A DNA stretch of 38,663 nucleotides, from assembly GCA_009779115.1 (NCBI GenBank), contig WREX01000007.1, positions 1 through 38,663 on the forward strand, read 5' to 3'. The position numbers were made by a program, and so were the translations under genes. This document shows, one piece after another, positions 1 through 27,310 of this stretch (the stretch's first letter is position 1; the number at the start of each line of letters is the position of its first letter). A model generated the notes under the pieces. It made no database searches. It was given only the letters and a program-made list of their open reading frames with translations, and had not been told where the DNA came from. Source of the stretch: Propionibacteriaceae bacterium (GTDB lineage Bacteria; Actinomycetota; Actinomycetes; Propionibacteriales; Propionibacteriaceae).

Positions 1-402
1 CAACCCCGGAGAATCCTGGCATTGGAAAGCCTTGCCGCTAAACGCTCAAACTGGAAAAACTTGCCACCCGAAACTGGAAACTTCCTAACGCTCACACTGA
101 CAAAAAAGAACCTACGTCACACACCGGGTGCCTGCGGCGAGGTGGATCCTCAGAGTCGAAAGAGTGCTCCAACGCCGCGCTGCAATGAAGACCTCCACAA
201 CCGCCGCCCCGGCCCACCAACGGAATCCTGGAACACCCCTCAGCGGAACAATGGCACACCCCACGACAGAAAATCGGAGCTCTAAGACTGTGCGACGTAA
301 ACTGAATCAAGGTTCGGAGCACTCCTCTGAGAACTGGTGTATCAATTGATTCACGGGAGGGGTTCGTTTGGCATGGAAAACATACAATTGTTCTAGTGGC
401 AT

Positions 403-1851
403 CTATTTATCCCCGCGCCAAACAAGAATTCCAGCAGATAACGCCAGACCCTTTGTCTCCCAACCATGCAAATCAATCTGGGGACTTCTCCTGATGTCCC
501 CAGCACTGACACCCTGTTTGTTTGTTGACCTGGAGAGGGAGTGGTCTCGTGTCAGAACGGTTTCAAAGCGAACTGAGAACTCACGGCCACTCCACTGAAG
601 TTTCAAGGTCTGTGTTGGATAGATATCTTGTCCGAAAAAGTTCTGGGACATCCTCCCCATTAACCCGCTTGAGAAACTGACCAAGGTGCCCGAAACAACA
701 CATACATCTAAGTGAATCAGTGGACTAACTCGACGATAGGTTATCTCCAATTCACATCCCTCAGGGGTTACTTGGAAACCTGTGACGTGAACATTCCAAG
801 GCCAACTTGCTTGAACTGGCCCAACACGCAACTGTCCGTCCGGAGTCACGGCTGGAGGCCCGTGCATGCGTTCCAGTATGTAGGCTTGCAACATACGATG
901 CAGCGAACTCTTCACCACAAGATTCGGATCAAGCATAGTTGCTGATCTACCGAGAAGACCATCCATCGCAACCAAATCCAGGTTTGATTCAGGTATTCGG
1001 GAAGGCCCAGTTCCCAGGAAATCTAAGAACTCAAGCTGGGCTACGGCTGGCAGTGTGCCGTTTGCCGGAACATCCCGGTCAAGCATGCCCTCCACTTTTC
1101 TAACAAGATTAATATCGTATTTTTGACCATGCTTACCGCGCGGTCCCCTGGCCATTCTCAAGGCAGCAGAATTCTGTCCACTCAGACTGGACTCATCTGC
1201 TCGAAACCTAAAGTAATATAAGGTCTCTGCGATAAACCCAAATTTGCTGCCATTAAGTTTGGTGACTTTCCTCGAGAAGTCACGATCCTCGTTCATCTTT
1301 TGTCCATCCACAAATGTAACGTTCCCGATTGCCGAACGCCTCCATACACCCGTATTGACATTAGACACCAAGCGAAATGCGTCCGGTTCAACTGACAGAT
1401 CAATGACTCTTGTTCCACGAGCAATGTGAGGGGGATACCTCGGTTCAATACCACTGAGATCGCCAAAATACTGACTTGCAACGCGCACCATGGGCACTTC
1501 TGGATGACTATCTAAAAAACCATGACACTTGGCATACATCCCATCTGCCAGGTAGTCGTCCTGATCAATGAAGGATACGAAAGGTGTTTGAACCGCCATC
1601 AAGCCGATATTACGTGGTGTTGCAGGCGACCCACTGGTTTCTTGGGTGCGAACGTAAGTGACGCGATCAGGAAATCGTGATACGAATTCTATGGTTTTGA
1701 TAGCACCATCCGTGGAACAGTCATCCACGCAAATGACACGGATAGGAATATTGGCATCACAGAATCCCTCTTGGGCCGTAAGTGACTCAAATGCTTGACC
1801 AATCCACAGGTCGGCATTATAGATCGGGAACACAACCGTCAACCACGCCAT
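403..1851 (-). CDS. Family 2 (GT-A) glycosyltransferase with about 150-aa C-terminal extension
   Basis: 482-aa ORF; N-term TVVFPIYNADLWIGQAFESL, CVDDCSTDGA, FIDQDDYL (GT2 nucleotide-sugar motifs); C-terminal region predicted beta-rich by eye. Confidence 0.85.
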   Translation of the reverse strand: MAWLTVVFPIYNADLWIGQAFESLTAQEGFCDANIPIRVICVDDCSTDGAIKTIEFVSRFPDRVTYVRTQETSGSPATPRNIGLMAVQTPFVSFIDQDDYLADGMYAKCHGFLDSHPEVPMVRVASQYFGDLSGIEPRYPPHIARGTRVIDLSVEPDAFRLVSNVNTGVWRRSAIGNVTFVDGQKMNEDRDFSRKVTKLNGSKFGFIAETLYYFRFRADESSLSGQNSAALRMARGPRGKHGQKYDINLVRKVEGMLDRDVPANGTLPAVAQLEFLDFLGTGPSRIPESNLDLVAMDGLLGRSATMLDPNLVVKSSLHRMLQAYILERMHGPPAVTPDGQLRVGPVQASWPWNVHVTGFQVTPEGCELEITYRRVSPLIHLDVCVVSGTLVSFSSGLMGRMSQNFFGQDIYPTQTLKLQWSGREFSVRFETVLTRDHSLSRSTNKQGVSAGDIRRSPQIDLHGWETKGLALSAGILVWRGDK

Positions 1852-2098
1852 CAGTCATCCTCTTATTTCAAGTGATCATTCAAAGGGGGCAATAGAGCCA
1901 TCCAGTTGCAAGAATAAGCTAGTATGATACCATTATCATTTTGGATTGGCGCACATTCCTCCTTGAGTAATGAACAACAGACCACCAGCATCAATGTCTC
2001 ACCCTCACTCATTCGGGTGAAACCCAATGTCAGCCCAAATCCTGCGACTCAAGGAGTTCGATTGAAGACCTTGCCATCGCCCCTACTGCGGAGAAAGC

Positions 2099-3859
2099 AT
2101 GATTTTTCGGGCGCTGAGTCCAGCCACTGAAGCCACATCCCCAGGAAATCAGAATTTATCGGATGCTAGACTAACGTTCATGCCTGATGGCACCGAAAAA
2201 AACAGCAAACAAGATGCCAAACGTATAGGTCGTCGGAGCAGTCTGCCTGATACTCCATGGCGGTGGGACACCCTGGGTGACAACCCGGAATGTATGGGGT
2301 GTGCGGGGTGTGTAGCGGCCTGTCCATTCGATGCTCTGTCAATGGGTAGCGATGCTCTTGGGTATTTTCGGCCTATCTTGGACCCATCGAAATGCCCTGA
2401 GTGTGGACTCTGTGTGCGGATGTGCCCGGCCATAGTACTTCCTAAAAAACCGTCTCAAGAGATGCCGCAGTTGTATGCGTTTGTTGGTGCTAATCCGGAT
2501 GAGGTGCGAAACAGCACATCTGGTGGTATTTTTCCCCTACTCGCCAAGGCAGTCCTGGATCAGGGCGGGAAAGTGGTCGGCACCCAGTGGACGAAGGAAT
2601 TGGGCGCTGAGAGTGTCATCATTGATGCCGTCGATCAAATCAAGCCACTTCAGAAATCGAAGTATGTGCAGCCGTGGACCGGTTCAACATTCCGATCAAT
2701 CCAGGAAGAGTTGAAGGCTGGACTCCTGGTCCTGTACACAGGCCTGCCTTGTCAGTGTGCAGCGTTGCGAGCATTTTTACACAAGTCGTACAGCAATTTG
2801 TTTGTTGTTGACATCCTCTGCGGTATGGCACCTTCAACGGCATATTTCCAGTCCTACGTTGGTGAGACGTGGGGAAAGGACAACGTTGCCCAGTACGAAT
2901 TTAGATACAAGTCTGAGCAAGCAAAGTGGCACGAGCACGCAGCGAAGGTGACGATGCGCAATGGCCAAGTAACGGTTGTTGACCGATGGTCTGATCACTA
3001 TCAACTCATGTACCACGACCACACCATGTCACCTAACCACTGCGAACACTGCACGTACCAAGCTGTTCCCCGATATGGAGACCTGAGCATCGGTGACTTC
3101 TGGGGTATCACTCAACACGACCGAGCGATTCCGACAGCAAATGGCGTCAGTGCCATACTGGTGAACACTCCCAAAGGGCAAAAATTGCTTGATCTTGTTA
3201 AACCTGATGATACAACTATCTTAAAGGAGGAACCCCTAGACTATCTGGGTCAGAACGGATACGCGATTCAAGGCGGGCATGGTTTCGCCTCCCTACATCG
3301 GGATGCCTTTGTCGAAGCTTTTCGAACGACACAATCATTCGAGGCCGCCTACGCTGCCGCTAGGCAAGGGGCCGGCATCAAGTCGACTATTGACAACGCA
3401 ACTCGGCGTAGGAATTTTCGGTCTCTTACGCCACTTCACTTTGATTCCCGAGAGACTCATGTCGTAGCTGATCAAGATTCATGGGCCGTGGAGTGGCAGA
3501 ATGATGCGATCACATTCACAGTACATCCCGATGCCGTACGTAAGGGCAATCACGCGGCGTTTCGATTACCCGCAGCACTTGAACCTTCACAAGCCTACAT
3601 ACTTCGTGTGAGTGGTGATGTGACAACGAATCATGTGGAGTTCTCTCTTCACGTCAAAAATTCGACGACGGGTGAATTCAAGGTAGTCCGACGGCTCCTC
3701 ATGGACGGTCACCACGCTCGTTCGTTCGATGAGTCGATATTTCTCCAACTTCCTGGACCGGGATTTGACGAGATCATGATCGCGTCCTCACATGTGTACG
3801 GGCCGGGCGCAACCGTTGCATTTCGTCGGGTCCAACTTCAGATGGCAACAGCACAGTAG
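2099..3859 (+). CDS. 4Fe-4S / coenzyme F420 hydrogenase-dehydrogenase beta-subunit (FrhB)-like protein with C-terminal beta-rich domain
   Basis: 586 aa; two ferredoxin motifs CMGCAGCVAACP and CPECGLCVRMCP; FrhB-like SGGIFPLLAKAVLDQG, GLPCQCAALRAFL, GDLSIGDFWGI; RBS-like ggag upstream of ATG; 12 bp before the next PPT gene. Confidence 0.85.
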   Translation: MIFRALSPATEATSPGNQNLSDARLTFMPDGTEKNSKQDAKRIGRRSSLPDTPWRWDTLGDNPECMGCAGCVAACPFDALSMGSDALGYFRPILDPSKCPECGLCVRMCPAIVLPKKPSQEMPQLYAFVGANPDEVRNSTSGGIFPLLAKAVLDQGGKVVGTQWTKELGAESVIIDAVDQIKPLQKSKYVQPWTGSTFRSIQEELKAGLLVLYTGLPCQCAALRAFLHKSYSNLFVVDILCGMAPSTAYFQSYVGETWGKDNVAQYEFRYKSEQAKWHEHAAKVTMRNGQVTVVDRWSDHYQLMYHDHTMSPNHCEHCTYQAVPRYGDLSIGDFWGITQHDRAIPTANGVSAILVNTPKGQKLLDLVKPDDTTILKEEPLDYLGQNGYAIQGGHGFASLHRDAFVEAFRTTQSFEAAYAAARQGAGIKSTIDNATRRRNFRSLTPLHFDSRETHVVADQDSWAVEWQNDAITFTVHPDAVRKGNHAAFRLPAALEPSQAYILRVSGDVTTNHVEFSLHVKNSTTGEFKVVRRLLMDGHHARSFDESIFLQLPGPGFDEIMIASSHVYGPGATVAFRRVQLQMATAQ

Positions 3860-3871
3860 AGAGAGTTAATC

Positions 3872-5440
3872 ATGGGGTATGACATAGGAATAGTGGGTTG
3901 GTGGTATGGAGACAACTATGGTTCAATGGTGACCTATTATGCCTTGCACGATGTATTGTCAACAATAGGCTTCTCCACAGCGATGATCCCCTCAGGGTCA
4001 AGGCAAGAACCCGTTCAGCCACTTCCTAACACCTACCCTATTCGCTTTGCTCGGGAACACTATGCCGTTGTTGAACGCAGAACAAAACAAGCGATGGGCG
4101 AACTGAACAACGAGTTCCAGGCCTTCCTCTGCGGTAGCGACCAACTCTGGAATCCAACTATCGACATTGTCGACGACGAGAACTTTCTTTCTTTTGCCGA
4201 CGATGGAAAACTACTTGTTTCGTACGCCACGTCCTTCGGCGGCAATGCCATGGACGCCCGCTGGAAGAAACCCGTCATCCAAAGAAACATCAAGAACCTT
4301 CAGCGCTTCGATTCGGTCTCGGTCCGAGAGGATTACGGGGCAAAAATCGCTCGGGATGTGTTCGGTGTCACAGCCACATCCGTACTTGATCCAGTTTTCT
4401 TGGCAGGTCGTCCCGCCTTCGACAAACTCATCTCGGCCCCACCGATCACGGATCCTGGTGACACACTCTTCGCATTCATCCTGGATCCCACAGTAGAGAA
4501 ACGCGACACCGTCGAGCGAATTTCCCGGCAACTCGGCCTTGGAAGAATTGCCGTCATGACTGGAGCCGACCCACGGACTTTTCACGTGCTCCGCGACATC
4601 TTTGACACCCATCAGGTCCTTGATGTCATCGGAATGGATTTGTTCTTGGGTCTTATCTCGCAGTCTGCTTATATTGTGACTGATTCCTTTCATGGAACAT
4701 GTCTTTCATGGATTTATCAACGTCCATTTTCCTCATTCTTCAATGAGAAACGGGGATCAGATCGATTCGTGTATCTCATGGATCTCCTGGGGATGGAGAG
4801 TCGGCGCGTTGAAGTCGGCGCTTCAACTCAATCGCTTGCTGAAAATGGCAACGTCTCCTTTGATCTTGATTTCTCTGCGTCACGTGAACGCGTCGCACTC
4901 GAAGCAACGCGTTCTCTGTTCTGGTTGCAGCAAGCCCTGAAGCCACTTGGTGCACCACATGTGCAACCACCTGCAGAACGGAAGAACTCTGAGATCCACG
5001 AGGCAGGTGATGTTCGATCCATTTTTGACGTGGCACCTGTTCACACTCGCGTGAGGTTGGTCTCGGATTGGTCCTCATGGATAGACGAGAAGGGGATCGG
5101 CCTGAAGGTGACCCGACACGATCACGAGGGAGCCCAGCACTGGGAGTTTCCATTAGACCAACCTTTGCTTCAAGGTTTCGAGTACGAGGTCGTCATCGAC
5201 TACACCGTCGAAGAGGGTGCTGTTGAGGCGGCGTGGTCGCTCCAGGCTTCACATACGACTAATAAGCCCCTTGTTATCACTGCGGAACCCACAACCACAG
5301 AGGACGCTGCACCCATTTCCACGAGGATTCAGATTCGTGACGCTGGTGTGGACACCCTGGTCCTCAACGTGAGACTGACAACTAGCGGGTCAGCAATCAT
5401 CATTGTCCGAAGGCTCAGCATCGAACAAGTTGCGCTCTAG
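3872..5440 (+). CDS. Polysaccharide pyruvyl transferase family protein with C-terminal beta-rich domain
   Basis: 522 aa; GIVGWWYGDNYGSMVTYYAL, FLCGSDQLWNPTI, AYIVTDSFHGTCLSW (PPT signature motifs). Confidence 0.88.
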   Translation: MGYDIGIVGWWYGDNYGSMVTYYALHDVLSTIGFSTAMIPSGSRQEPVQPLPNTYPIRFAREHYAVVERRTKQAMGELNNEFQAFLCGSDQLWNPTIDIVDDENFLSFADDGKLLVSYATSFGGNAMDARWKKPVIQRNIKNLQRFDSVSVREDYGAKIARDVFGVTATSVLDPVFLAGRPAFDKLISAPPITDPGDTLFAFILDPTVEKRDTVERISRQLGLGRIAVMTGADPRTFHVLRDIFDTHQVLDVIGMDLFLGLISQSAYIVTDSFHGTCLSWIYQRPFSSFFNEKRGSDRFVYLMDLLGMESRRVEVGASTQSLAENGNVSFDLDFSASRERVALEATRSLFWLQQALKPLGAPHVQPPAERKNSEIHEAGDVRSIFDVAPVHTRVRLVSDWSSWIDEKGIGLKVTRHDHEGAQHWEFPLDQPLLQGFEYEVVIDYTVEEGAVEAAWSLQASHTTNKPLVITAEPTTTEDAAPISTRIQIRDAGVDTLVLNVRLTTSGSAIIIVRRLSIEQVAL

Positions 5441-6116
5441 CGGAAGCCTTTCCCATGCCGAGGCACAGTGAGTCCGAGACCTCAGCAAGGCCCAGGAACC
5501 ACTGCCACTTCACCAAACCTGACACCTATACAAGCCCCGCTGCTCTACGACGCCAGACTCGATAGTTGGCCAGCCCTCTCCCCCTGTAAATGACCGAGCT
5601 GACTCTCACCTCCGAACTCAGGAAACGCATGGTCCACCACCGGTCTGCTCCTTCGCCGAGACACACTCTCTTGTTTGGTCAAGGAATTCGGGGTCAACTA
5701 AAAAATGACATGGTGAGTAACAGGCACCGACACACTCAACAACAGCTAACAGAATCTTCAAACTATATTTGGCTAGCATAAACACTCAGTTAAGACATAC
5801 TATTTCAACCAGCACCGAGGCGATCAGGAAGCACAGACACTCCCAACTATAGATATTAAAAAAAACAGAAACAATGATTTACTAGTATATTTACTCTACT
5901 GAGGCGCACCATGTCAACTTCCAACGGGGCATCGGGCTGTTTTAAAATTTCGAAATTAAGATCAAAATATGTTGGAATCGTTTATCGTCGGATGATAGAG
6001 TTTCTTGGAAAGTCGATATCGTATGACAAGGCAACCTTTGTCTTTGCCGGCTGATAGCCCTGTGGCAATGGGATTCGATTTCCGCGCTATGGATCAGAGC
6101 AGTTCAGGAGATCCGA

Positions 6117-7982
6117 ATGAATCGATCAGTGATCATCAACAAACTGTTGGAAAAAAGCACAAGCAGACGGTATCTCGAGATAGGTGGAGAAAGTGGAGCA
6201 AATTTCCTGTCTGTGCGAGCGAAGGACAAGGTCTGCGTCAATCCAAGGACACCGTCAGAACAGGTGACCTCTCGTCTCGGACCACATGTCCACTATCATC
6301 TCATCTCTAGTGATATGTACTTCAGTGAAAACCCTTCAACCGAGTTTGACGTGATACTGGTGGATGGTCTCCACGATGAGCAGCAAGTCCTGGCCGACAT
6401 CACTAACAGCTTGGATCACATCTCTGCTCATGGTTTTATCGTGTGCCATGATTGCCTTCCGCGCGACAAGACATGCCAACTTAACCGCAACGATTTCGAG
6501 CAGGTTTGGCAACAGGCAATCCGGGATAAAGCGCCATTTCACGCGGGTTGGACAGGTCCCGTCTGGAGAGCGATAGTCAGGATGAGAATGAGTCGGAAAG
6601 ACCTCGTCATTTTCACGCTGAATTGTGACTGGGGATGCGCTGTGATCACCCGTGGGGAACCGGACCATCTCCTCGCCACTGATACACTTCCAGACTATGA
6701 ACAATTTGCAGAGAACACAGACTATTATCTGAATCTAAAAGACCCCACCTATCTGTATGAGTTCATTTTCAAACAACGCGGCCAACCCGTTCCACGACTG
6801 TATGTGGAGGACTATGCTTCAGAAATCGAGTACCTTGCCAAGGACAGATTCTTGCCCGACGTGACCAGTTCACAGTCAATATCCCATGGAGTTATCCTCC
6901 CGTGCATTCCCGCTTCTCCAACCACCCGAGTGACGTATTTGGGCGGAGTGGTTGACAACCGCCAGCACTTTGTCGCTGGCCTTGCGAGAACTCAGAATAA
7001 CGCGACCAGGCCCCGCACCATCATCAATTCATACCCCTATGACCAAGAAAAAGTTCTCCACAGCGATGAAATAGTCTTGTTCGGAGGTGGGGTATGGGGC
7101 CACTTTGGCCATGTTTTAGTGGATGCTTTAAGTCGACTCTGGTGGCTGGCAAGAAATCCACAATACACCGGCAGAGTTGCGTACGTCCTGATGGGAACAA
7201 GGTTACTTTATAGACCATTTGTCGACATAATGGCCTTGCTAGGAGTCCCCGAAGAAAAAATTCTCATTGTTGAACAACCAACTCAGTTTTCCGAGATCCT
7301 AGTCCCCGATCAGACCTTCTTCTCTTACGATAGTGGGTATAAAGAGAAGTTTACAGAGATCTTCCACACAATCAGGGATCAGGTCCGACCTGGAAACCTC
7401 AGCAAAGTGTATTTGACGCGAACACAACTCACCAAGCAAGACACTGTTAACGAGGAATACTTCGAAACATTCTACAGAAACCATGGATGGAACATTGTCG
7501 CGCCAGAAAAGTTGTCGGTAGCCGAACAAGTTTCGATGATTGCTGGAGCTGATGAACTCGCCTGCGTTGAAGGGACTCTATCGCATCTTGTATTATTCGC
7601 GAAAGAAGATGTGAAACTCACTATTTTAAAACGCACTTCCGCTCACACTGTTCCCCAATCAATCATCAACCAAGCCACTGGAATAGACGTCACCTACGTT
7701 GATGTGAGTATGAACTTTCTGCCCACAAGCCATGCCACAGGAGCATTTCTCATGGGGCCAACACCCTTTTTCCGGCAATACGCTTGGGACCAATACCAAG
7801 AATCTGTGCCAGACTTCGACATTGATTCGTATGTCGCTGACTACATCAGAGTATGGGTTAGAAGACACGGTTCGTCACGAGGAGGATTCGGATACATACG
7901 CAATCGCACCCCAGTCGACTTCGTAGAATCTCTGAGCAAATACGTCTCAGGCCACATGGTCGACAGAAAAACAATCATCTGA
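6117..7982 (+). CDS. Fusion: class I SAM methyltransferase (N-term) - DUF563/GT61-family glycosyltransferase (C-term)
   Basis: 621 aa; N-term RRYLEIGGESGANFLSV...FDVILVDGLHDEQQVLADI (SAM-MT); C-term VLFGGGVWGHFGHVLVDALSRLWWL...VYLTRTQ...EGTLSHLVLF (GT61/DUF563); RBS aggag upstream. Confidence 0.8.
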   Translation: MNRSVIINKLLEKSTSRRYLEIGGESGANFLSVRAKDKVCVNPRTPSEQVTSRLGPHVHYHLISSDMYFSENPSTEFDVILVDGLHDEQQVLADITNSLDHISAHGFIVCHDCLPRDKTCQLNRNDFEQVWQQAIRDKAPFHAGWTGPVWRAIVRMRMSRKDLVIFTLNCDWGCAVITRGEPDHLLATDTLPDYEQFAENTDYYLNLKDPTYLYEFIFKQRGQPVPRLYVEDYASEIEYLAKDRFLPDVTSSQSISHGVILPCIPASPTTRVTYLGGVVDNRQHFVAGLARTQNNATRPRTIINSYPYDQEKVLHSDEIVLFGGGVWGHFGHVLVDALSRLWWLARNPQYTGRVAYVLMGTRLLYRPFVDIMALLGVPEEKILIVEQPTQFSEILVPDQTFFSYDSGYKEKFTEIFHTIRDQVRPGNLSKVYLTRTQLTKQDTVNEEYFETFYRNHGWNIVAPEKLSVAEQVSMIAGADELACVEGTLSHLVLFAKEDVKLTILKRTSAHTVPQSIINQATGIDVTYVDVSMNFLPTSHATGAFLMGPTPFFRQYAWDQYQESVPDFDIDSYVADYIRVWVRRHGSSRGGFGYIRNRTPVDFVESLSKYVSGHMVDRKTII

Positions 7983-8139
7983 CTGAAGACACAAAAACTT
8001 TATCCGCGCGTTGCTTGACCTGGGTTCCGGGTTTGAGATAGCTCAGAGGGCTGTGGAGAATGTGTTAGTACAGCCATGTCAACGCACAATCCGTTTCGAA
8101 GAGCACGGTCATTTGCTGATTAACAGGCGGCTAGACTCG

Positions 8140-11100
8140 CTACAGGTCAAGGTACTTACGCCAGAACTCGGCAGAATGAAAAGTACTCGAGTAGTCACGG
8201 TATCGCTGGCAGATTGCAGAACCGTCCGTTTCATAGCGTGACAGCAGTGTGTCATGTCGCATGATCAATTCCGTGTATCGCTTCCGGTCCATGGTGTGTA
8301 CCACAGCAGTCTTGTCGTGAATATTGACCGATAGAACTCTCTTCCGCAAGAATTGTTTGCCTGGTGACACGAAATACAAGTGGGCAACTTCAGGAACAGT
8401 GTCATCTCTGAGGAGATAATCTGGCAGCAAATGTCCGTTATCTGTGTCTTCGAATAGCTTCATGTCCTCCATGCCCAGAGCTGCATATTCATACACTCTG
8501 CTCTCATCAAGGGGATAACCGAGAGTGTCATATGGGTACAGCTTTTCATTTCTCGCGCTTTGCGCCTTAATAACCTGCTCCCCATCAAGGTTGACATAGT
8601 ATTCCGGCCCCTTCAAATAATCCTCCAGGGCATCAAGCAGATGCTCTGCAGCTTGATAATTGAACTTTCGGATCTCTTCTCTGAATAATCGTTCAATTCG
8701 TTTCACATAGTCCACTTGAGGAACAATACTGCTAATTGCCTGGGCAATCAGTGCGTTTCTGATCACCAAGTAGTACTCAAGCGATGTGGTCACTTTCGCA
8801 TCAAAGCCCATATGCCACACACATATACCATTAAACGCAATGAAGCCAGGATTATTCCTGAGACTGAACTCAACATCGTCGCCTCGGTAAAAAATTGGTA
8901 TTGTTAAAGAATCCTCAGCGACGTATTGCATGGGTATACAGCAATACCACCACCCGGCGTACATGTGCTCAAGGCTATATTCAATATCATTGCGAAGGAT
9001 GGCATCACTCTCGTGTAAAAGGTATCTTGGTTTCACAGGCGTATGGATGCCAAGTTGCGTTGAGACGTAACCAACGTCCTCGTGCTGCTCATTCATTTGA
9101 TCGAGATCGAGCATTGCCCCGGAAATAAATTTTCCTCGATGCTCATCCTTCAGCAACCTCAACAGAGCATACGTACGCTTCAGTGTTTCCGGCAATAGCT
9201 GAACGTCATCATCCATGAGAAGGATATGTGTTGCCGCAAACTCACCTCGCTCGCTGAGAGCTAAGGTTTCCAACATTCCACGTGTGAATCCTCCCGATCC
9301 ACCTGTGTTGATGTTGTGATGGAGCCTCATCCGATATCCATTAAAATCCTCTGGATCCAGGGTTCGTCCATTATCCACTATGTTGACAAACAAATGCTTT
9401 GACAAGTCATCCATTCCCCCAGTCCGAGGATTGACCAGTACTTCACGATTTATTAACTCAGCATTTCTGGTGACATAATCCTCTTTCTTGAACGTTGTGG
9501 TACACAAAGAAATGTCAACCCGATTGAGGTCTTCTTCATAGCAAAGAACTGAATACCAACCTTCATACAACTCGCAAGGCGTTTCCGCGATGATTTCGAA
9601 GCCAACGATGGAGGCATCTTGATACAGAATTGGCACGACAACTTCCCCTGAATCGGAGTTCGATTCCCCTGATTCCTCACAATTGAAGATATATTCCTTC
9701 AAAGCCTCTTCTTTAACCACCGCTTCACCAACGATTTGATGACAGAAACTTCTTCTCGCCGCATCACCGATCGGGAGAGCAAGAGTCTCTTCCAATTGAT
9801 GATCCATACTCTTGTGGCTTTGATCAGCGTTCTCGCTCTTGGGTTCAAGCCAGCGACCAAATAACCGGACACGAAACTTTCCTTTAACCCTCAAATGCAA
9901 AAAAAACTTGGTAGATATCGAGTATTTTGTCCATTTTTTGACTGCTAGCGAGTTGAAATAGGTAAAGAACTCCACACTTCCTTCAGTCAATGTCCAAAAG
10001 GGGTTAATTGGGTTGCCATTGTAGAACAACCGAGTGCCACGATGAAACAACCACCAGTGGTCATTCTTCCATTCGCAATCTGGCAACATAAGGTTCTGGA
10101 TTTTATAATGCACTGGTTGATAAACGGGTTTCGGCGAAACATGTTCATCGCAACCAGAGATGACGGACATATCGTCTGCCAACGGCTCACTCTTGGGCAT
10201 TGCACTTGCAAGTGCTTCCTGCAGCCACGTTTCAGCCTTCTTGCGCATGAATTCGACCTGTGGGTTTACCACAGCGTAGTTGATCGCACGATTGAATAAT
10301 TGTTCCCAGCCGGGTGGCAAGTCATCAATGTTCAGTATCTGCTGTGTCAGGTGCATGGGGTTGAGAGTGTCAGCAGCAACGCGATCGCTCCCGTCACTAG
10401 CGGTAGTCATCAAGACGAATGGCTTGTTTAGGACAATAGAAACAATTGCGATTCCAGGATCGTCTGTTATAACAAGCGCCGCATTACCAATGTGAGCCAA
10501 ATACTCGACTGCTCCCATCGACGGATCCGCATTGATTGGTTTTAAACCACAGTACTGCTCAGCAGCATTGGAGATATCCCACTTAGTTCTATCTGCAGAA
10601 CTCAGACATACAGCTGCGTATGCCTCGCTGCTACTCGGGGTAACCCCTTCCGTAATACTCGCGATGTCAGCATTCTGCAATAGTAAAAGCGGTGAAGATA
10701 ACGCATCGGATTCCAATGCATAGTCATGGTTCAGTATTCGCTTACTACTGGAAGCAGCCGCAGAAATCTTGGAAAACCGATGAAGACAATCCTTTGCAAA
10801 GCGCATATATTCTTGAGGAGCATAATAATCAAGTGGAAATTCAATCTCAAAGGCAACTTTAGGCTTACTCTCCGGAACAAAGTCCAAGTAATAATAGTGT
10901 CCCGAACTGCCATTCAAGCCATAGTCCAATGCATCCCCAAAGACAACAAAAGAAGAACATGTCTTGATAGCTGACATGTATTCAGTTTGTGTCTGTAGGA
11001 CAGGAAAAATACTGCACCGATCCAGTATGAGTCTTCCGGCCCCGGAGTGAGCGCCCGCATAGTCCATGGGCGCATTGAAAAACACAGGATCATAACCAAG

Positions 11101-11271
11101 TTTTTTTACATACTCAAAAACTGCCCAGGCACTGAGTTCAGAGACAATACTTCCAAACCAGTTCCCAATCATTCCAAGCTTGGTTCCATCGCCCACAAGC
11201 TCAACCTGTGGGCGACTCACACCAACGGACTCGCTGGACAAGGTTGGTTCTACATTCCGACTCGAAAGCAT
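8140..11271 (-). CDS. Fusion: degenerate polysaccharide pyruvyl transferase-like domain (N-term) - GlfT2-like galactofuranosyltransferase (C-term)
   Basis: 1043 aa; C-term HHNINTGGSGGFTRGMLETL, HILLMDDDVQLLPE, YAGWWYCCIP, YRGDDVEFSLR, CVWHMGFDAK (GlfT2 features); N-term GMIGNWFGSIVSELSAWAVFEYVKKLG...FVVFGDALDYGLNGSSGHYYYLDFVPESKPKVAFEIEFPLDY aligns with PPT domains in this window. Confidence 0.82.
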   Translation of the reverse strand: MLSSRNVEPTLSSESVGVSRPQVELVGDGTKLGMIGNWFGSIVSELSAWAVFEYVKKLGYDPVFFNAPMDYAGAHSGAGRLILDRCSIFPVLQTQTEYMSAIKTCSSFVVFGDALDYGLNGSSGHYYYLDFVPESKPKVAFEIEFPLDYYAPQEYMRFAKDCLHRFSKISAAASSSKRILNHDYALESDALSSPLLLLQNADIASITEGVTPSSSEAYAAVCLSSADRTKWDISNAAEQYCGLKPINADPSMGAVEYLAHIGNAALVITDDPGIAIVSIVLNKPFVLMTTASDGSDRVAADTLNPMHLTQQILNIDDLPPGWEQLFNRAINYAVVNPQVEFMRKKAETWLQEALASAMPKSEPLADDMSVISGCDEHVSPKPVYQPVHYKIQNLMLPDCEWKNDHWWLFHRGTRLFYNGNPINPFWTLTEGSVEFFTYFNSLAVKKWTKYSISTKFFLHLRVKGKFRVRLFGRWLEPKSENADQSHKSMDHQLEETLALPIGDAARRSFCHQIVGEAVVKEEALKEYIFNCEESGESNSDSGEVVVPILYQDASIVGFEIIAETPCELYEGWYSVLCYEEDLNRVDISLCTTTFKKEDYVTRNAELINREVLVNPRTGGMDDLSKHLFVNIVDNGRTLDPEDFNGYRMRLHHNINTGGSGGFTRGMLETLALSERGEFAATHILLMDDDVQLLPETLKRTYALLRLLKDEHRGKFISGAMLDLDQMNEQHEDVGYVSTQLGIHTPVKPRYLLHESDAILRNDIEYSLEHMYAGWWYCCIPMQYVAEDSLTIPIFYRGDDVEFSLRNNPGFIAFNGICVWHMGFDAKVTTSLEYYLVIRNALIAQAISSIVPQVDYVKRIERLFREEIRKFNYQAAEHLLDALEDYLKGPEYYVNLDGEQVIKAQSARNEKLYPYDTLGYPLDESRVYEYAALGMEDMKLFEDTDNGHLLPDYLLRDDTVPEVAHLYFVSPGKQFLRKRVLSVNIHDKTAVVHTMDRKRYTELIMRHDTLLSRYETDGSAICQRYRDYSSTFHSAEFWRKYLDL

Positions 11272-11557
11272 ACTACCCCTTTCGATAAATTATCTGACAT
11301 GCCCCACAACAAGTCTGAGCTGTTCCTTCGACAGATTCACACCATTCCAAAGAATGTATCGTTGTCATGTAAGGCAGCAACCTGCATTATATTAGCATTC
11401 AGCTGTCGACAGAGAGACGGTCCAGAACACATTTCAGAAGATGAGCCCCTAATTACTTTAGTCATTTCTCGAGCGAAGACATACAAAACCATCAATGATG
11501 AGATATTCAGTCGTAGGATGAAGGGGTTAGAACAGTAATCAAAAAATGGAGGATTCT

Positions 11558-14530
11558 ATGTATGATGTGGCTCTTGTTGGAGTGGGAACCGGCGCAAACT
11601 ATGGTTCTGCCCTTTCCTACTTCGCCATTGTTGAGACTATCCAGAGCATGGGGAAGTCGGTTCTCCTTATCAACAAGATCGGAACATCCTCGAGTGACAG
11701 GGAGGCATCAAACGACAACCCATCCCTGGCCTTCGCTCGACAGAATGTCGCAGTTAGTAGTTCTTTTTCCTTTGACGACATCCACCAGGTGAACGACATG
11801 GCTGAAACGTTTGTGGTGGGGACAGACCAAGTATGGAATTACGGCATCTCGCGAGGGTTTCGGGACAGCTTTTATCTTGACTTCGTCGATGCAAGCAAAA
11901 GAAAAATATCTATAGCCTCATCATTTGGGCATCCGATCGACTTTGTGCCTGATGACGTCCGGCCAAGGCTGGACAAACTGTTTAAGCGTTTCAATGCCAT
12001 ATCTGTACGAGAATATTCGGCGGTAGACCTGATGAAGAGCAAGTATGGACTGACGCCGACTCAGATACTTGAGCCCATCTTCTATGTCTCAAATGATCGT
12101 TACTTCGAATTGGCACAGAAAGCGACCGTTCTGACGGCTCAACCATATCTACTGTCCTACCTTCTCGACAAGACTGATGAAAAACAACAGGCGGTAGAAG
12201 CAATGGCTAATAAGTTAGGCCTTGAAATCCGAGAATTGCCTGACGGAATGGCGGCCGTGCAGACGAGGGCAGAGGCTTTGTTCACGCCAAACGATGTGCT
12301 GCAGTTGTTCAAGAACGCCTCCTACGTGATCACTGACTCATTCCACGGGACGTCTTTTTCGATTAAGTTCAATAAAAATTTTGTGTCATTCGTGAACAGA
12401 CGTCGGGGGGTCACTCGTTTCGACACAATTTTTAATATTATTGGAGACGAGAGTCGGAAAGTTTATAATCCAGTGGATGTCACATCCGACGTGAGCAAGT
12501 TCATCGACGGTTTTGATTATTCCACCATCAACGAGTCGATCCGGAATGAGGTTTCCCGGGCGAAGAACTGGATCAGGGAGGCATTGGCCAAGGACATACA
12601 TCAGCTAGTAAAGGCTCCTAACCTGGCACAGCCCGAGATTGAAAAATTCCTGACAAGCAGAACCTTCAGCTTTGGCAGAGTTTCCGACAATGTGACGTTT
12701 TCCCGGAGTTGGATATTTCTACGCAACGGAAGTATTGGCGGATATGACAATGAAAATGAACGCAAGTGGAGAGTCGTTGATGACACTTTGGAAATCCTCA
12801 ATGACAATAACGAAGTAACGTCGTCGTTTCCACTATCAAAGCAATACAAGAAGGGCATGATCGGTCACAGTATCAAGTCCAACGACGTGGAACTCTTTCT
12901 ACGGACAAAAAGACCCTACGACATGGTTCAAGTAAAAATCCTGGTATCTTTACTGAAACAGCACGGAATCCAACACATTGTCGCCTCTTCCGGCACCAGA
13001 GATGTCTCCATTCTTCGAATGATCGAGAGGAACTCAGACTTTTTTAAGGTTCATCCAATGGGAGATGAACGATCAGCGGCCTATTTTGCTCATGGCCTCT
13101 CGATCAAGCTTGGTAAACCTGTTGCTTTGGTATGCACGTCTGGAACAGCAGCCTCCAACTATTTGCCTGGGGTAAGCGAAGCATATTACTACCACACGCC
13201 TCTTGTCGTGATTACGGCTGACAGACATCCAATGTTTCTAAATAATCATGATGATCAGACTATTCCCCAATCGGACATGTATAGGGGAGTGGTGAAGAAA
13301 TCTGTAACACTAACATCCGGTGAGCATTCCCGCTTTGAGTGGTTTGCCACGAAAGAGATCCAATCCACCATTCTCGAAGCCACTCACGGGACTCCTGGCC
13401 CCGTACATATCAACATTCCTATTCTGACAATCGAGCGTTCTGCGCCCGAAGACGAAGACTTCGAACTCCTCAAGACACGACTTGTCAAGCGGATCACTCG
13501 TCATGATCCAGAGAGTGCTTGGAACGCTTACGCCAACACCTTAAAACGTACAGACAGAATAATGGTTTTGTATGGTCAGAATCAACCATTGGCGGAGGAT
13601 AAGAGTGAAAGAATCCAAGATTTCGCTCGGACCTACCATGCTGTTGTAATTGCTGAGCACATCTCGAACGTGCACGGGCCTCGCGTCGTAAACCCATTTC
13701 ACTTCTTGTCTCAAGTTTCCCAGCGTGACTTCAACCGGGATCTCATGCCCCAGGTGTTGATATCGGTCGGTGGGACTCAAATCATGAATCACCCAATTAC
13801 CGGACTACTGCGTGGTTCCAGTAACAAAATGAGGCACTGGATCGTCGACCCAAACGGTGATTACACGGATAAGTTCTATCATCTGACTTCCATCATTGAG
13901 TGTAACCAAGACTATTTCTTCGACTTTTTAATTCGCAAAGGTGAGCAGCTCGACAAAGGGGATGTGTACTTTCAGACATGGATGGATCGTTTGGCAGAAC
14001 ATCCACAGCTTGAGACCGGAACAAGTCAATATGATCAGTTCAATATTGAAGGAAAACTACTATCTCATTTACCACAAGGTTCAATGCTTCACCTGGGGAT
14101 TGGGAACACTTTCATGATGACTCAACATTTCGCTCTCCATCCAAGCATCGAAGTTCAGTGCAACATGGGAACAAATGGCATTGATGGTTCTGCATCGACT
14201 TTCATGGGCCAGCTACTTGCTACTCCAACAACACAATATGCATTTTTACTCATAGGTGATCTGTCGTTCTTCTACGACATGAATTCTGTCATCAATAAGC
14301 CATTGACGAGAAATATCCGTATCATGTTAATTAACAACGGAAAAGCTGGATTACTTGAGCATCACAAAGTGGATTCGATCACCCAGTCGTTCACGGCTAC
14401 CGCACGGGGATGGGTTGAGTCACTTGGGTTTTCCTACATATCAGCCCGAAATACCAGTGAATTTGACTCCCAGTTATCAGTATTTGTCTCTGATCGACCT
14501 GAACCGCTTTTCTTTGAGGTGTTCATCTAA
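11558..14530 (+). CDS. Fusion: polysaccharide pyruvyl transferase (N-term) - short linker domain - MenD-like ThDP-dependent enzyme (C-term)
   Basis: ORF given as 11546..14530 (994 aa); ATG at 11558 preferred because ggagg lies just upstream. PPT motifs GVGTGANYGSALSYFAI, VVGTDQVWNYG, YVITDSFHGTSFSI; MenD-like motifs ASSGTRD, GDERSAAYFAHGLS, CTSGTAASNYLPGVSEAYY, VVITADRHP...DQTIPQ, GDLSFFYDMN...IMLINNGKAGLLE. Confidence 0.85.
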   Translation: MYDVALVGVGTGANYGSALSYFAIVETIQSMGKSVLLINKIGTSSSDREASNDNPSLAFARQNVAVSSSFSFDDIHQVNDMAETFVVGTDQVWNYGISRGFRDSFYLDFVDASKRKISIASSFGHPIDFVPDDVRPRLDKLFKRFNAISVREYSAVDLMKSKYGLTPTQILEPIFYVSNDRYFELAQKATVLTAQPYLLSYLLDKTDEKQQAVEAMANKLGLEIRELPDGMAAVQTRAEALFTPNDVLQLFKNASYVITDSFHGTSFSIKFNKNFVSFVNRRRGVTRFDTIFNIIGDESRKVYNPVDVTSDVSKFIDGFDYSTINESIRNEVSRAKNWIREALAKDIHQLVKAPNLAQPEIEKFLTSRTFSFGRVSDNVTFSRSWIFLRNGSIGGYDNENERKWRVVDDTLEILNDNNEVTSSFPLSKQYKKGMIGHSIKSNDVELFLRTKRPYDMVQVKILVSLLKQHGIQHIVASSGTRDVSILRMIERNSDFFKVHPMGDERSAAYFAHGLSIKLGKPVALVCTSGTAASNYLPGVSEAYYYHTPLVVITADRHPMFLNNHDDQTIPQSDMYRGVVKKSVTLTSGEHSRFEWFATKEIQSTILEATHGTPGPVHINIPILTIERSAPEDEDFELLKTRLVKRITRHDPESAWNAYANTLKRTDRIMVLYGQNQPLAEDKSERIQDFARTYHAVVIAEHISNVHGPRVVNPFHFLSQVSQRDFNRDLMPQVLISVGGTQIMNHPITGLLRGSSNKMRHWIVDPNGDYTDKFYHLTSIIECNQDYFFDFLIRKGEQLDKGDVYFQTWMDRLAEHPQLETGTSQYDQFNIEGKLLSHLPQGSMLHLGIGNTFMMTQHFALHPSIEVQCNMGTNGIDGSASTFMGQLLATPTTQYAFLLIGDLSFFYDMNSVINKPLTRNIRIMLINNGKAGLLEHHKVDSITQSFTATARGWVESLGFSYISARNTSEFDSQLSVFVSDRPEPLFFEVFI

Positions 14531-14696
14531 AACTAGAGCTAATTTGGGCGTGCTTGACGGGCTCGGCATCACTGCCAACGGCAGACACCACGGCTCAGAC
14601 CCTCGCCACACTCATTGTGGTTGACAAGGCGATAGGTCATGTGGGTACTAAAAAGGCGTCATTCAACCAAATGACGTGGAGAGAAGGAGGATCGTG

Positions 14697-16244
14697 GTGA
14701 ACCGAAAGGTGCTATTGATCGGAGGTACTGGCGCCATCGGTACCTACCTGGCCCCTCAATTGGTAAGAGCAGGATACGACGTCTGTGTGACTACCCGCCA
14801 CCAGATACAAAGTTCAGACTCCTCCATCGGTTACGTTCGTGGAGACGGGCATGATGTCGGCTTCTTAGACAGGCTTAAGGCAAATGACTCCTACTCTGCT
14901 GTTGTTGACTTCATGCATTATTCCACGATTGATTTTTCAGAAAGAGTTGATCGTTTGTTGTCTCTTTCGCCTCACTACTTTTTCCTATCCAGTTATCGAG
15001 TTTTTGCAGATGCGGCTGGATTGATAGTTGAATCGTCCCCCAGGCTACTAGACGTTTGCAAGGATCATCGGTACATGAAATCTGACGAGTATGCCCTCGC
15101 AAAAGCCCGACAAGAAGACATCCTGATGAAAGAAAAAAACCGACCGTGGACCATCGTCCGTCCAGCTGTTACATATTCTAAGAGGCGATTTCAATTGGGC
15201 GTCCTTGAGACAAATCTCACCGTAAGTAGAGCTTTATTATCGGCCAAGACAATTATTGCAGCAGAGCTGTTGAACAAATTTACTACGATGACTTGGGCTG
15301 GTGATGTCGCCTGGATGATTGCCGAGTTGATTGACAACCCAAATGCAATCGGGGAGGCGTTCAACGTGTCTACTAGTGAGTACCACACATGGGAGGAGGT
15401 CGCAGACATCTACAAGACCTTGTTCGGGCTAGATTACACAGTCATCCCCCTTGACGCGTACATCGCTGTAACCAAACGAGCCTGGCAACTAAAATATGAT
15501 CGCCTATACGATCGGCAAATGGACAATTCCAAGATTCTGAGTCTCACTGGTCGAACCTCTGAGGACATGCTGCCACTCTACAAAGGTCTGGAGCGGGAAC
15601 TCGCTGCCATTGATCAACCTCAGTGGAGAGGCGAGATCACCAATTGGGAACAGCATGCTGAATTGGACTTCGCCAGTGGCTCAAGGATCAGCCTGACTGA
15701 AGTTCCAGATGAGGCAAAGACACGATATTTTAATCGACTGGAAAAACTCCAGCAGACGAAGCAAATGCGAGATCTTGGAAATGTTTATTTTCACGACTGG
15801 GATGTGTTAATCCCTACATCAAGTGAGTTTTTCCATGTCTTACTTGAAACTAGTTTGTTATCAGCGCTCCTTATTATTACTCGTAAGGCTTCGATTCTAG
15901 CCAATCCAGGCCCACGGAAATGGCTTGACTTCAGATTGAAGAGTCCGTTGGTCTACAACAATTGGTACGAACTGACAGTTTGTCTAGCTGACAAAAGTCC
16001 TGAATTGCCACTTTTCCTCCGTGACAGTCAGCAAGGAAGCACGCAACGCATCAGCCTCCATGCATCGGAACAGACAAATAGTTACAATACTTTCAAGTAT
16101 GTTTTTCTAGCTCAAGCCAATCATGATTTCATTACAACTACCAGTACCTGGTGGCAGGTCGGATTGGTCATTTCTGTCTCAAGTATCCACATCAAGATGA
16201 TCCAAGGCCCAACAAGTCTCGGCCCGTCCAGTTATCCGGAATAG
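14697..16244 (+). CDS. Extended SDR / NAD-dependent epimerase-dehydratase family protein with about 170-aa C-terminal extension
   Basis: GGTGAIGTYLAPQL Rossmann motif, YALAK catalytic pattern; ORF called from 14676 but agaaggagg SD at 14682-14690 favours GTG at 14697. Confidence 0.8.
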   Translation: MNRKVLLIGGTGAIGTYLAPQLVRAGYDVCVTTRHQIQSSDSSIGYVRGDGHDVGFLDRLKANDSYSAVVDFMHYSTIDFSERVDRLLSLSPHYFFLSSYRVFADAAGLIVESSPRLLDVCKDHRYMKSDEYALAKARQEDILMKEKNRPWTIVRPAVTYSKRRFQLGVLETNLTVSRALLSAKTIIAAELLNKFTTMTWAGDVAWMIAELIDNPNAIGEAFNVSTSEYHTWEEVADIYKTLFGLDYTVIPLDAYIAVTKRAWQLKYDRLYDRQMDNSKILSLTGRTSEDMLPLYKGLERELAAIDQPQWRGEITNWEQHAELDFASGSRISLTEVPDEAKTRYFNRLEKLQQTKQMRDLGNVYFHDWDVLIPTSSEFFHVLLETSLLSALLIITRKASILANPGPRKWLDFRLKSPLVYNNWYELTVCLADKSPELPLFLRDSQQGSTQRISLHASEQTNSYNTFKYVFLAQANHDFITTTSTWWQVGLVISVSSIHIKMIQGPTSLGPSSYPE

Positions 16245-26032: not shown

Positions 26033-27310
26033 TCAGAGCTTCAGCGACTGACGCACGTTGCGTACCCTGGCTATCAATGCTTGAGACGTTCCAGGTTCAG
26101 CCTGCGTATCCATCGCCCGTGTCAGGGCAAAGCGTCTGGCGGTGAAGTCCCCAACCGATACTGGTTTGGGAAAACGAATGGATTTCAACTTCTGGTCGAA
26201 TTTTCGTGGTGACTGACCTGGGAGGTACACGTGGGCTAGGTCGTTGCGCCGCAGGAACTCAGTCACGCGCTCCCATCGCTCGCTGTGACCCGTGAGAGTC
26301 GCCTCCCAGCTGGCCCCGGCGTAAAGGTCAGCGGCGTCGACATCAGTCTGGCCTGTCAGGATCTGGCGGGGGATTTCGTGGTAGTCGGCCAATTCCAAAG
26401 TACGCGAGTCGTGCGCAAGAACAACGGCAGGGACACCGGCCAACAAGGCGACGATATTCCCGTGAATCCTGGAGCCGAATGAGAAGTCGAAGCCGGACAG
26501 ATGGCGAATCCAGGTGGTCGGGTCCACACAGAACCTGGTCCTGTTCTGGCTCAACAGCGGGTGGTCCAAGGTGGTTGGAGAACCCTCTGGTTGGGGCTTC
26601 TTGGCATAGTACGTCCCGGTCAGCATCAGGCCCAGGGTGAGGTGGTCTTGGGCTGTATATATAAGGTTCTGATATCGTGCAGCGTGGTCTAATGAAATTG
26701 GCCCCATTTTAGGGACATACGGAGAGATATTCATCGAGATGCGTGATTGTTCCGTGATGGCCTCGACCGTCTTTGTGATGCTCAGGTTCGGCCCGGCCAT
26801 GAACATGGACGGACAACCGATCACGTCGACCACATCGGACCCAAAACCCAGGCGCTTGAGATAGCCGGCTGTGACCTCTCCACGGACGCCCATGGTGGCC
26901 GACCGGTTCAACACGCTTGAAACAAACTCTTTCACGATGGCGTCGAGGCCGGAGGCTGGGATTCGCCCGCTCACTGGGCCCTGGCAACCTACGCCGAGGA
27001 CCACGACGGGGATGGTGAGCCGATTGAAGAGGTCGGTCATCGCCTGGAGTTCATCGGTGAAGGATTTCCGGAAGGCATCAGCCAAAGGCACGACGACCAA
27101 GTCGTAATTTGCGTTGACTCGATCTGGGTCAAGGTTCACGAATTTGCGGGCGTCGATCTTCGTCCCCTGCGTGGACAGAAGTCGGTAGACCGATTGGGAA
27201 AAGACCAGGTTGCCGACATTGTTGCCGATGAGGTTCTTGGAGAGAGTCTTGCCCGCGCTGGCCACACGGAACGGGCTCTTGTGAGCACGTAGCAGAATCC
27301 GCATCGGCAC
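26033..27310 (-). CDS. Polysaccharide pyruvyl transferase family protein
   Basis: 425 aa; GNNVGNLVFSQSVYRLL, YDLVVVPLADAFRKSF, VVVLGVGCQG, FSFGSRIHGNIVALLAGVPAVVLAHDSRTLELADYHEIP. Confidence 0.82.
   Translation of the reverse strand: MPMRILLRAHKSPFRVASAGKTLSKNLIGNNVGNLVFSQSVYRLLSTQGTKIDARKFVNLDPDRVNANYDLVVVPLADAFRKSFTDELQAMTDLFNRLTIPVVVLGVGCQGPVSGRIPASGLDAIVKEFVSSVLNRSATMGVRGEVTAGYLKRLGFGSDVVDVIGCPSMFMAGPNLSITKTVEAITEQSRISMNISPYVPKMGPISLDHAARYQNLIYTAQDHLTLGLMLTGTYYAKKPQPEGSPTTLDHPLLSQNRTRFCVDPTTWIRHLSGFDFSFGSRIHGNIVALLAGVPAVVLAHDSRTLELADYHEIPRQILTGQTDVDAADLYAGASWEATLTGHSERWERVTEFLRRNDLAHVYLPGQSPRKFDQKLKSIRFPKPVSVGDFTARRFALTRAMDTQAEPGTSQALIARVRNVRQSLKL

Follow-up and report, generated by a model that had tools for sequence, protein, structure and literature searches.

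MenD is known for a Stetter-type 1,4-addition, and MurB reduces enolpyruvyl ethers by adding hydride at the CH2= carbon. Polysaccharide pyruvyl transferases (PPTs) use PEP, not free acids. In MenD of B. subtilis R409 and R428 serve 2-oxoglutarate, R409 serves isochorismate as well, together with R32 and R106, and I489, F490 and L493 form a hydrophobic patch; the chief damage in the R428A mutant is to 2-oxoglutarate binding, and the substrate residues R32, R106, R409, R428, I489, F490 and L493 are strictly conserved (PMC2914249). As for the glycans, 2-ethers of 2,4-dihydroxypentanoic acid occur in Providencia alcalifaciens O31 (PMC10609480). A survey of 79 Klebsiella capsule clusters reported a pyruvyl transferase gene without pyruvylation in K8, K22, K37 and K66, and also counted two genes for nitroreductases and one for an F420-hydrogenase (PMC4616057).

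The gene described here joins a PPT to a MenD-like enzyme. It lies in a stretch of 38,663 nucleotides from a Propionibacteriaceae bacterium (contig WREX01000007.1), the whole of which is called the window below. A single open reading frame (11546-14530, plus strand) runs for 994 aa from an ATG start with zero internal stops. Pfam places PS_pyruv_trans (PF04230) on residues 18-284 (E 2e-24, 87.2 bits against a cut-off of 25.3) and TPP_enzyme_N on residues 464-568 (E 2e-18). The NCBIfam menD model TIGR00173 scores 253.6 bits, narrowly above its cut-off of 244.2, against 53.4 bits for the best acetolactate-synthase model. In AlphaFold models the ThDP half has a pLDDT of about 90, with the MenD structures 3lq1, 9e9b and 2x7j as top Foldseek matches, and the PPT half (modelled as residues 1-460) adopts a GT-B fold, for which the structural matches include Pvg1p. 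The linker of about 105 residues between them gave no match in Pfam and none among the proteins of the other loci or of the window; strands are predicted at residues 383-429 with moderate confidence. The GC content is flat at 46-47% along the whole gene. The preliminary description had proposed an uninterrupted PPT and MenD-like protein in a glycan context; the reading frame, the Pfam and menD-model matches, the structure models and the surrounding genes bear this out, and every PPT and ThDP-enzyme motif it quoted is present. Two complete enzymes are joined in one reading frame, and the fusion is real. The PPT-ThDP fusion itself is known from one metagenome-assembled genome in one assembly. 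It was absent from all 18 other genomes of the genus that were searched, where matches were partial and to ordinary ThDP enzymes or PPTs.

Table 1. Features of the fusion gene and of neighbouring genes, in positions of the window
Feature	Position	Strand	Family, motif or likeness
FrhB-type flavin/Fe-S oxidoreductase	2099..3859	+	PF04432, Fer4
Second PPT, 522 aa	3872..5440	+	PF04230; 29% identity to the PPT half of the fusion; same clade
Methyltransf_24 fused to Glyco_transf_61	6117-7982	+	Side observation
GlfT2-like protein, 1043 aa, with N-terminal PPT-like domain	8140-11271	-	27% to the PPT of the fusion over 264 aa
Fusion, N-terminal PPT domain, aa 1-350	11546..12595	+	PF04230; GT-B fold; motif TDSFHG
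Fusion, linker region, aa 351-455	12596..12910	+	Small predicted beta-sheet; no family
Fusion, MenD-like ThDP enzyme, aa 456-994	12911..14527	+	menD model, tree, residues, fold
NAD(P)-dependent SDR (aa 11-312) with 210-aa C-terminal extension	14676..16244	+	Cassette-SDR ortholog; YxxxK kept
Third PPT	26033-27310	-	R-x-H motif (SRIHG) as in ketal-forming enzymes

The fusion sits in a glycan locus and not in a men operon. FrhB, other PPTs, UDP-galactopyranose mutase, several glycosyltransferases and CDP-glycerol/ribitol-type transferases are encoded around it, and this content therefore indicates a wall glycopolymer locus. The GC content of the fusion region is 46-49%, compared to about 60% further right. 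The second PPT is the closest relative of the fusion's PPT half in the window, and the FrhB-type protein encoded before it is likely its partner. The C-terminal accessory domain of this FrhB-type protein resembles an accessory region of a Gemmobacter protein (E 1e-13), and a similar domain stands between PPT and MurB or nitroreductase in Rhodobacterales fusions, so this extension could perhaps be a shared docking or glycan-binding domain. C-terminal extensions are found on several enzymes of the locus, namely the FrhB-type protein, the second PPT and the SDR. In the GlfT2-like protein the site of the catalytic motif reads ITDDPGIA, not ITDSFHG, and this protein probably combines a galactofuranosyltransferase-like enzyme with a PPT domain that is inactive. 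Since the third PPT has the R-x-H motif, both PPT types may occur in the locus.

The ThDP half was compared in a tree of 58 enzymes, comprising the fusion, 43 enzymes from glycan loci and 14 MenDs. The fusion and the 43 glycan-locus enzymes form one clade of 44 (support 100/100) apart from the 14 MenDs, of which those from Bacteroidota are nearest. The fusion is the earliest branch of this clade and its branch is long (1.55). Judging from the tree, the ThDP half belongs to a previously unrecognised glycan-locus family that split from MenD. The active-site residues are given in B. subtilis MenD numbering. R32, R106, S405, R409, R428, F490 and L493 are retained in 14 of 14 MenDs. R428 is gone in all 44 members of the clade, and among the 43 cassette enzymes L493 is gone in all, K299 in 42 and S405 in 41. 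Position 489, which is Ile or Leu in all 14 MenDs, is Glu in 43 of 43 cassette enzymes and Leu in the fusion. The catalytic Glu is intact throughout, and a single enzyme lacks an intact ThDP/metal motif. The fusion retains E56, R32, R106, Q118 and GDL/NN, and carries the changes R409 to M, R428 to M, K299 to H, I489 to L, F490 to L and L493 to H. While R32 and R106 are missing from most cassette enzymes but retained in the fusion, R409 and F490 are kept in 43 of 43 cassette relatives and lost in the fusion alone. The fusion is the most divergent cassette member, without the R409, E489 and F490 of the 43 others, and its substrates may differ because of the long branch and the loss of R409 and F490.

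The ThDP half is not the menaquinone MenD of this genome. In the assembly, which is 2.25 Mb in size and 65% complete, a canonical menD was found on another contig (C1:15395-16591, 323 bits) beside o-succinylbenzoate-synthase-like (menC-like) and menA-like ORFs. The presence of this gene and the loss of both R409 and R428 uphold the earlier suggestion that the fusion does not serve menaquinone synthesis. Its TIGR00173 score exceeds the cut-off, but this cut-off is also passed by clear cassette relatives in menB-less genomes and is therefore not specific for MenD. A search for MenB in 18 other cassette genomes, among them assemblies of unstated completeness, left 12 without a score above the cut-off, and 11 of these had no match. 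The cassette ThDP enzymes above the TIGR00173 cut-off come from loci L078, L079, L082 and L098 (first copy), partly in menB-less genomes, and they are likely misannotated as MenD. The annotation error is systematic, in that cassette enzymes score above or close to the curated menD threshold where the genome has no menB that can be recognised. In locus L098 (Bifidobacterium oedipodis, 1-10059) two PPTs occur together with two MenD-like ThDP genes, each of a different subtype.

The preliminary description had missed the SDR gene next to the fusion, which completes the system as its third part. A plasmid search revealed a cluster in Ruminococcus albus with PPT, flippase, 'thiamine pyrophosphate-binding protein' and NAD-epimerase genes together, and searches in a related actinobacterial class gave PPT, MenD-like and SDR genes together in Olsenella (G225) and further genomes. 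The SDR downstream of the fusion shares 44% identity with the Olsenella cassette SDR, 38% with the R. albus SDR and 48-51% with the SDRs of loci L088-L092, two of which are fused to a PPT. From these identities we conclude that it is orthologous to the SDRs that accompany the MenD-like gene in other phyla. Linkage was examined by scanning about 85,000 species genomes with an SDR alignment as the query and without use of the ThDP enzyme. The scan gave 80 loci from many phyla, including Saccharibacteria, Bacteroidota, Synergistaceae and Dehalococcoidia. A ThDP gene is present in 40 of the 80, and a PPT accompanies 27 of these 40 as against none of the 40 loci without a ThDP gene (Fisher p=2e-11). 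If only loci of at least 18 kb are considered, a PPT is present in 18 of 24 with a ThDP gene and in 0 of 15 without; laxer score limits give slightly different totals (42, 28, 28). The gene order varies (PPT-ThDP-SDR, SDR-ThDP-PPT or ThDP-SDR-PPT), and in three loci (L088, L089, L095) SDR and PPT are fused. Loci that lack the extended SDR have a classical SDR next to the ThDP gene instead, a substitution that favours a plain redox step. The fusion locus likewise combines a MenD-like enzyme without R428, a PPT and an SDR. As judged by gene content, PPT, MenD-like enzyme and SDR are a conserved cassette across many phyla, of which the fusion is one fused, divergent member. The literature searched contained no paper describing a MenD-like enzyme with a PPT.

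About 40 loci have an SDR homologue without ThDP or PPT (L093-L097, L099, L101-L107 and others), many of them from gut Clostridia and Lentisphaeria. The apparent 961-aa frames of G620 and G764 (L080, L081), considered as N-terminal ThDP fusions, are Arg-rich read-through of GC-rich sequence with no model match. A phosphonopyruvate decarboxylase was considered for the R. albus cluster, where a cytidylyltransferase and a class V aminotransferase are encoded, and rejected because the cytidylyltransferase is fused to GFO_IDH_MocA and not to PEP mutase.

What the PPT makes is suggested by the enzymes that take the place of the ThDP partner. The plasmid PPTs closest to the PPT half of the fusion are Rhodobacterales proteins of about 850 aa. 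A PPT-MurB fusion is present in Paracoccus aestuarii, PPT-nitroreductase fusions in Gemmobacter and P. alcaliphilus, and a PPT-FrhB fusion in Marinibacterium. The P. aestuarii PPT-MurB and Gemmobacter PPT-nitroreductase proteins are 68% identical through residue 499, after which unrelated reductases follow. Similar pairs occur as separate genes: FrhB or nitroreductase adjoins PPT on K. aerogenes and E. coli plasmids, MurB-like FAD proteins adjoin PPT in Cetobacterium and Novosphingobium, and MurB is found near PPT in L. brevis, where the order PPT-flippase-MurB compares with PPT-flippase-ThDP in R. albus. In the PPT tree, read without the ExoV row, the PPT of the fusion is in one clade (99/91) with MurB-, nitroreductase- and FrhB-linked PPTs. 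The simplest reading of these partners is that PPTs of this clade would make enolpyruvyl ethers. Because the partner classes fail to separate into PPT clades, PPT sequence alone cannot tell ketal from ether. Most of these PPTs have, with few variants, D-S-F-H where Pvg1p and WcaK, the two ketal-forming PPTs used in the motif comparison, have R-L-H, of which the Arg contacts PEP in the Pvg1p model. Two cassette PPTs retain R-x-H and are exceptions to D-S-F-H.

In view of the above, the best explanation would be a pathway in which the PPT, the ThDP enzyme and the SDR act in succession, and we consider the chances for and against it to be evenly balanced. The individual reactions, the donor and the product are what we infer from the comparisons. 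The PPT would move the enolpyruvyl group of PEP onto a sugar hydroxyl of the growing wall polymer to give an enolpyruvyl ether, sugar-O-C(=CH2)-COO-, the usual cyclic pyruvate ketal not being closed. The ThDP domain would decarboxylate a small 2-oxo acid, with pyruvate as the likeliest candidate, to an acyl carbanion, which would attack the CH2= carbon of the enolpyruvyl ether, the same carbon that receives the hydride in MurB. This would be the Stetter 1,4-addition of MenD shifted to a new acceptor. The loss of R428 is the sole basis for regarding pyruvate as the probable donor. The neighbouring SDR would then reduce the resulting 4-oxo group, and the predicted product is a sugar 2-O-ether of 2,4-dihydroxypentanoic acid. 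The fusion would thereby combine two consecutive steps of glycan decoration, with the adjacent SDR providing the third. In Klebsiella, we infer that the pyruvyl transferase genes of the capsule types without pyruvylation and the nitroreductase and F420-hydrogenase genes belong together.

Other explanations should be weighed against this pathway. The ThDP half could act like YerE, taking two carbons from pyruvate and attaching them to a keto-sugar nucleotide by 1,2-addition, with the SDR producing the ketone or reducing the acetyl branch and the PPT separately pyruvylating the same sugar. Pairs of ThDP enzymes and ketoreductases do build branched sugars in polysaccharides and antibiotics (PMC12247030, PMC4753412), and the SDR is similar to sugar-nucleotide epimerases and dehydratases. 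However, the MenD lineage, evident from the menD and acetolactate-synthase scores, speaks against it, and it explains neither the fusion of PPT to either partner nor the occurrence of MurB, nitroreductase or FrhB in the place of the ThDP enzyme, so that it appears unlikely. The preliminary description had left the choice between a pyruvyl-type and a keto-sugar substrate for the ThDP half; the comparative evidence favours the former, and the lineage is that of MenD rather than of YerE or acetolactate synthase. It is quite unlikely that the three enzymes share a pathway in which the ThDP enzyme uses another donor, reacts at another position or, in this divergent fusion, is only structural. The long branch and the loss of R409 and F490, unique to the fusion, would fit such a change, but the fusion still has the cofactor residues E56, GDL and NN and keeps the SDR ortholog as its neighbour. 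An improbable possibility is that the ThDP half releases a small molecule made from a 2-oxo acid, such as an aldehyde or a hydroxy acid, which is reduced by the SDR and attached by the PPT or another transferase. The gene set would be identical, hydroxyacyl groups are present on many glycans, and the ThDP domain has retained its decarboxylation machinery. Against it, the PPT family takes PEP rather than free acids, an activating enzyme is not a recurrent member of the cassette loci examined, and MurB as an alternative partner is unexplained. Finally, a second or moonlighting menaquinone MenD caught in a glycan locus, in spite of a menD score slightly over the cut-off and the retained isochorismate-binding R32 and R106, is close to refuted by the separate canonical menD, the alteration of R409, R428, K299, F490 and L493, the cassette relatives in menB-less genomes and the linkage to SDR and PPT.

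The proposed sequence of PPT transfer, ThDP-dependent extension and SDR reduction can be widened to the related loci, with a confidence a little short of even. The PPTs with D-S-F-H would be enolpyruvyl-ether synthases. The MenD-derived ThDP family, whose members are at present annotated as 'thiamine pyrophosphate-binding protein' or MenD, would act as a Stetter ligase on glycans and lengthen the enolpyruvyl group by an acyl unit before reduction by the SDR; the MurB, nitroreductase and FrhB partners would lead to lactyl ethers from the same intermediate. This points to carbon-carbon bond formation on glycans by a second family of Stetter-type ThDP enzymes. Bacterial polysaccharides carry ether-linked lactate and 2,4-dihydroxypentanoate, whose chemistry has been known for a long time but to which no enzyme was assigned in the literature that could be searched; the proposal would also offer a general and testable way of making them. 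As a means of building a small side chain of carbon on surface glycans, the proposed route has not been described before.

Compared to known systems, the ThDP half is closest to MenD (TIGR00173) of the Bacteroidota branch. It has the fold, lineage, ThDP-activating Glu, R32, R106 and Q118 in common with these enzymes and is 34% identical to a Bacteroides MenD across the whole domain. The fusion differs from MenD in lacking the 2-oxoglutarate-binding R409 and R428, in its altered K299, F490 and L493, and in its position next to a PPT and an SDR in a glycan locus of a host that has its own MenD. The YerE-like enzymes of yersiniose and erwiniose synthesis also pair a ThDP ligase with a reductase to add carbon to a surface-glycan sugar, as proposed here, but they are of acetolactate-synthase-like lineage, perform 1,2-addition to a keto sugar nucleotide and have no PPT partner. 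The ketal pyruvyl transferases Pvg1p, CsaB and WcaK share PF04230 and the GT-B fold with the PPT of the fusion, whereas they form cyclic ketals without such a partner and, in Pvg1p and WcaK, have R-x-H at the PEP site in place of D-S-F-H. The R. albus pRUMAL01 cassette (WP_013483600) contains the same three enzyme families in one cluster, with the SDR ortholog adjoining the ThDP gene; there the genes are separate and the ThDP enzyme keeps R409 and is without R32 and R106. The PPT-MurB protein of Paracoccus aestuarii plasmid pAES7 (WP_015063318) has a PPT half that is 35% identical to that of the fusion and belongs to the same clade. Like the fusion, it joins a PPT to an enzyme that would process the PPT product, but its partner is an enolpyruvyl reductase, which would give a lactyl ether, whereas that of the fusion would be a carbon-carbon ligase.
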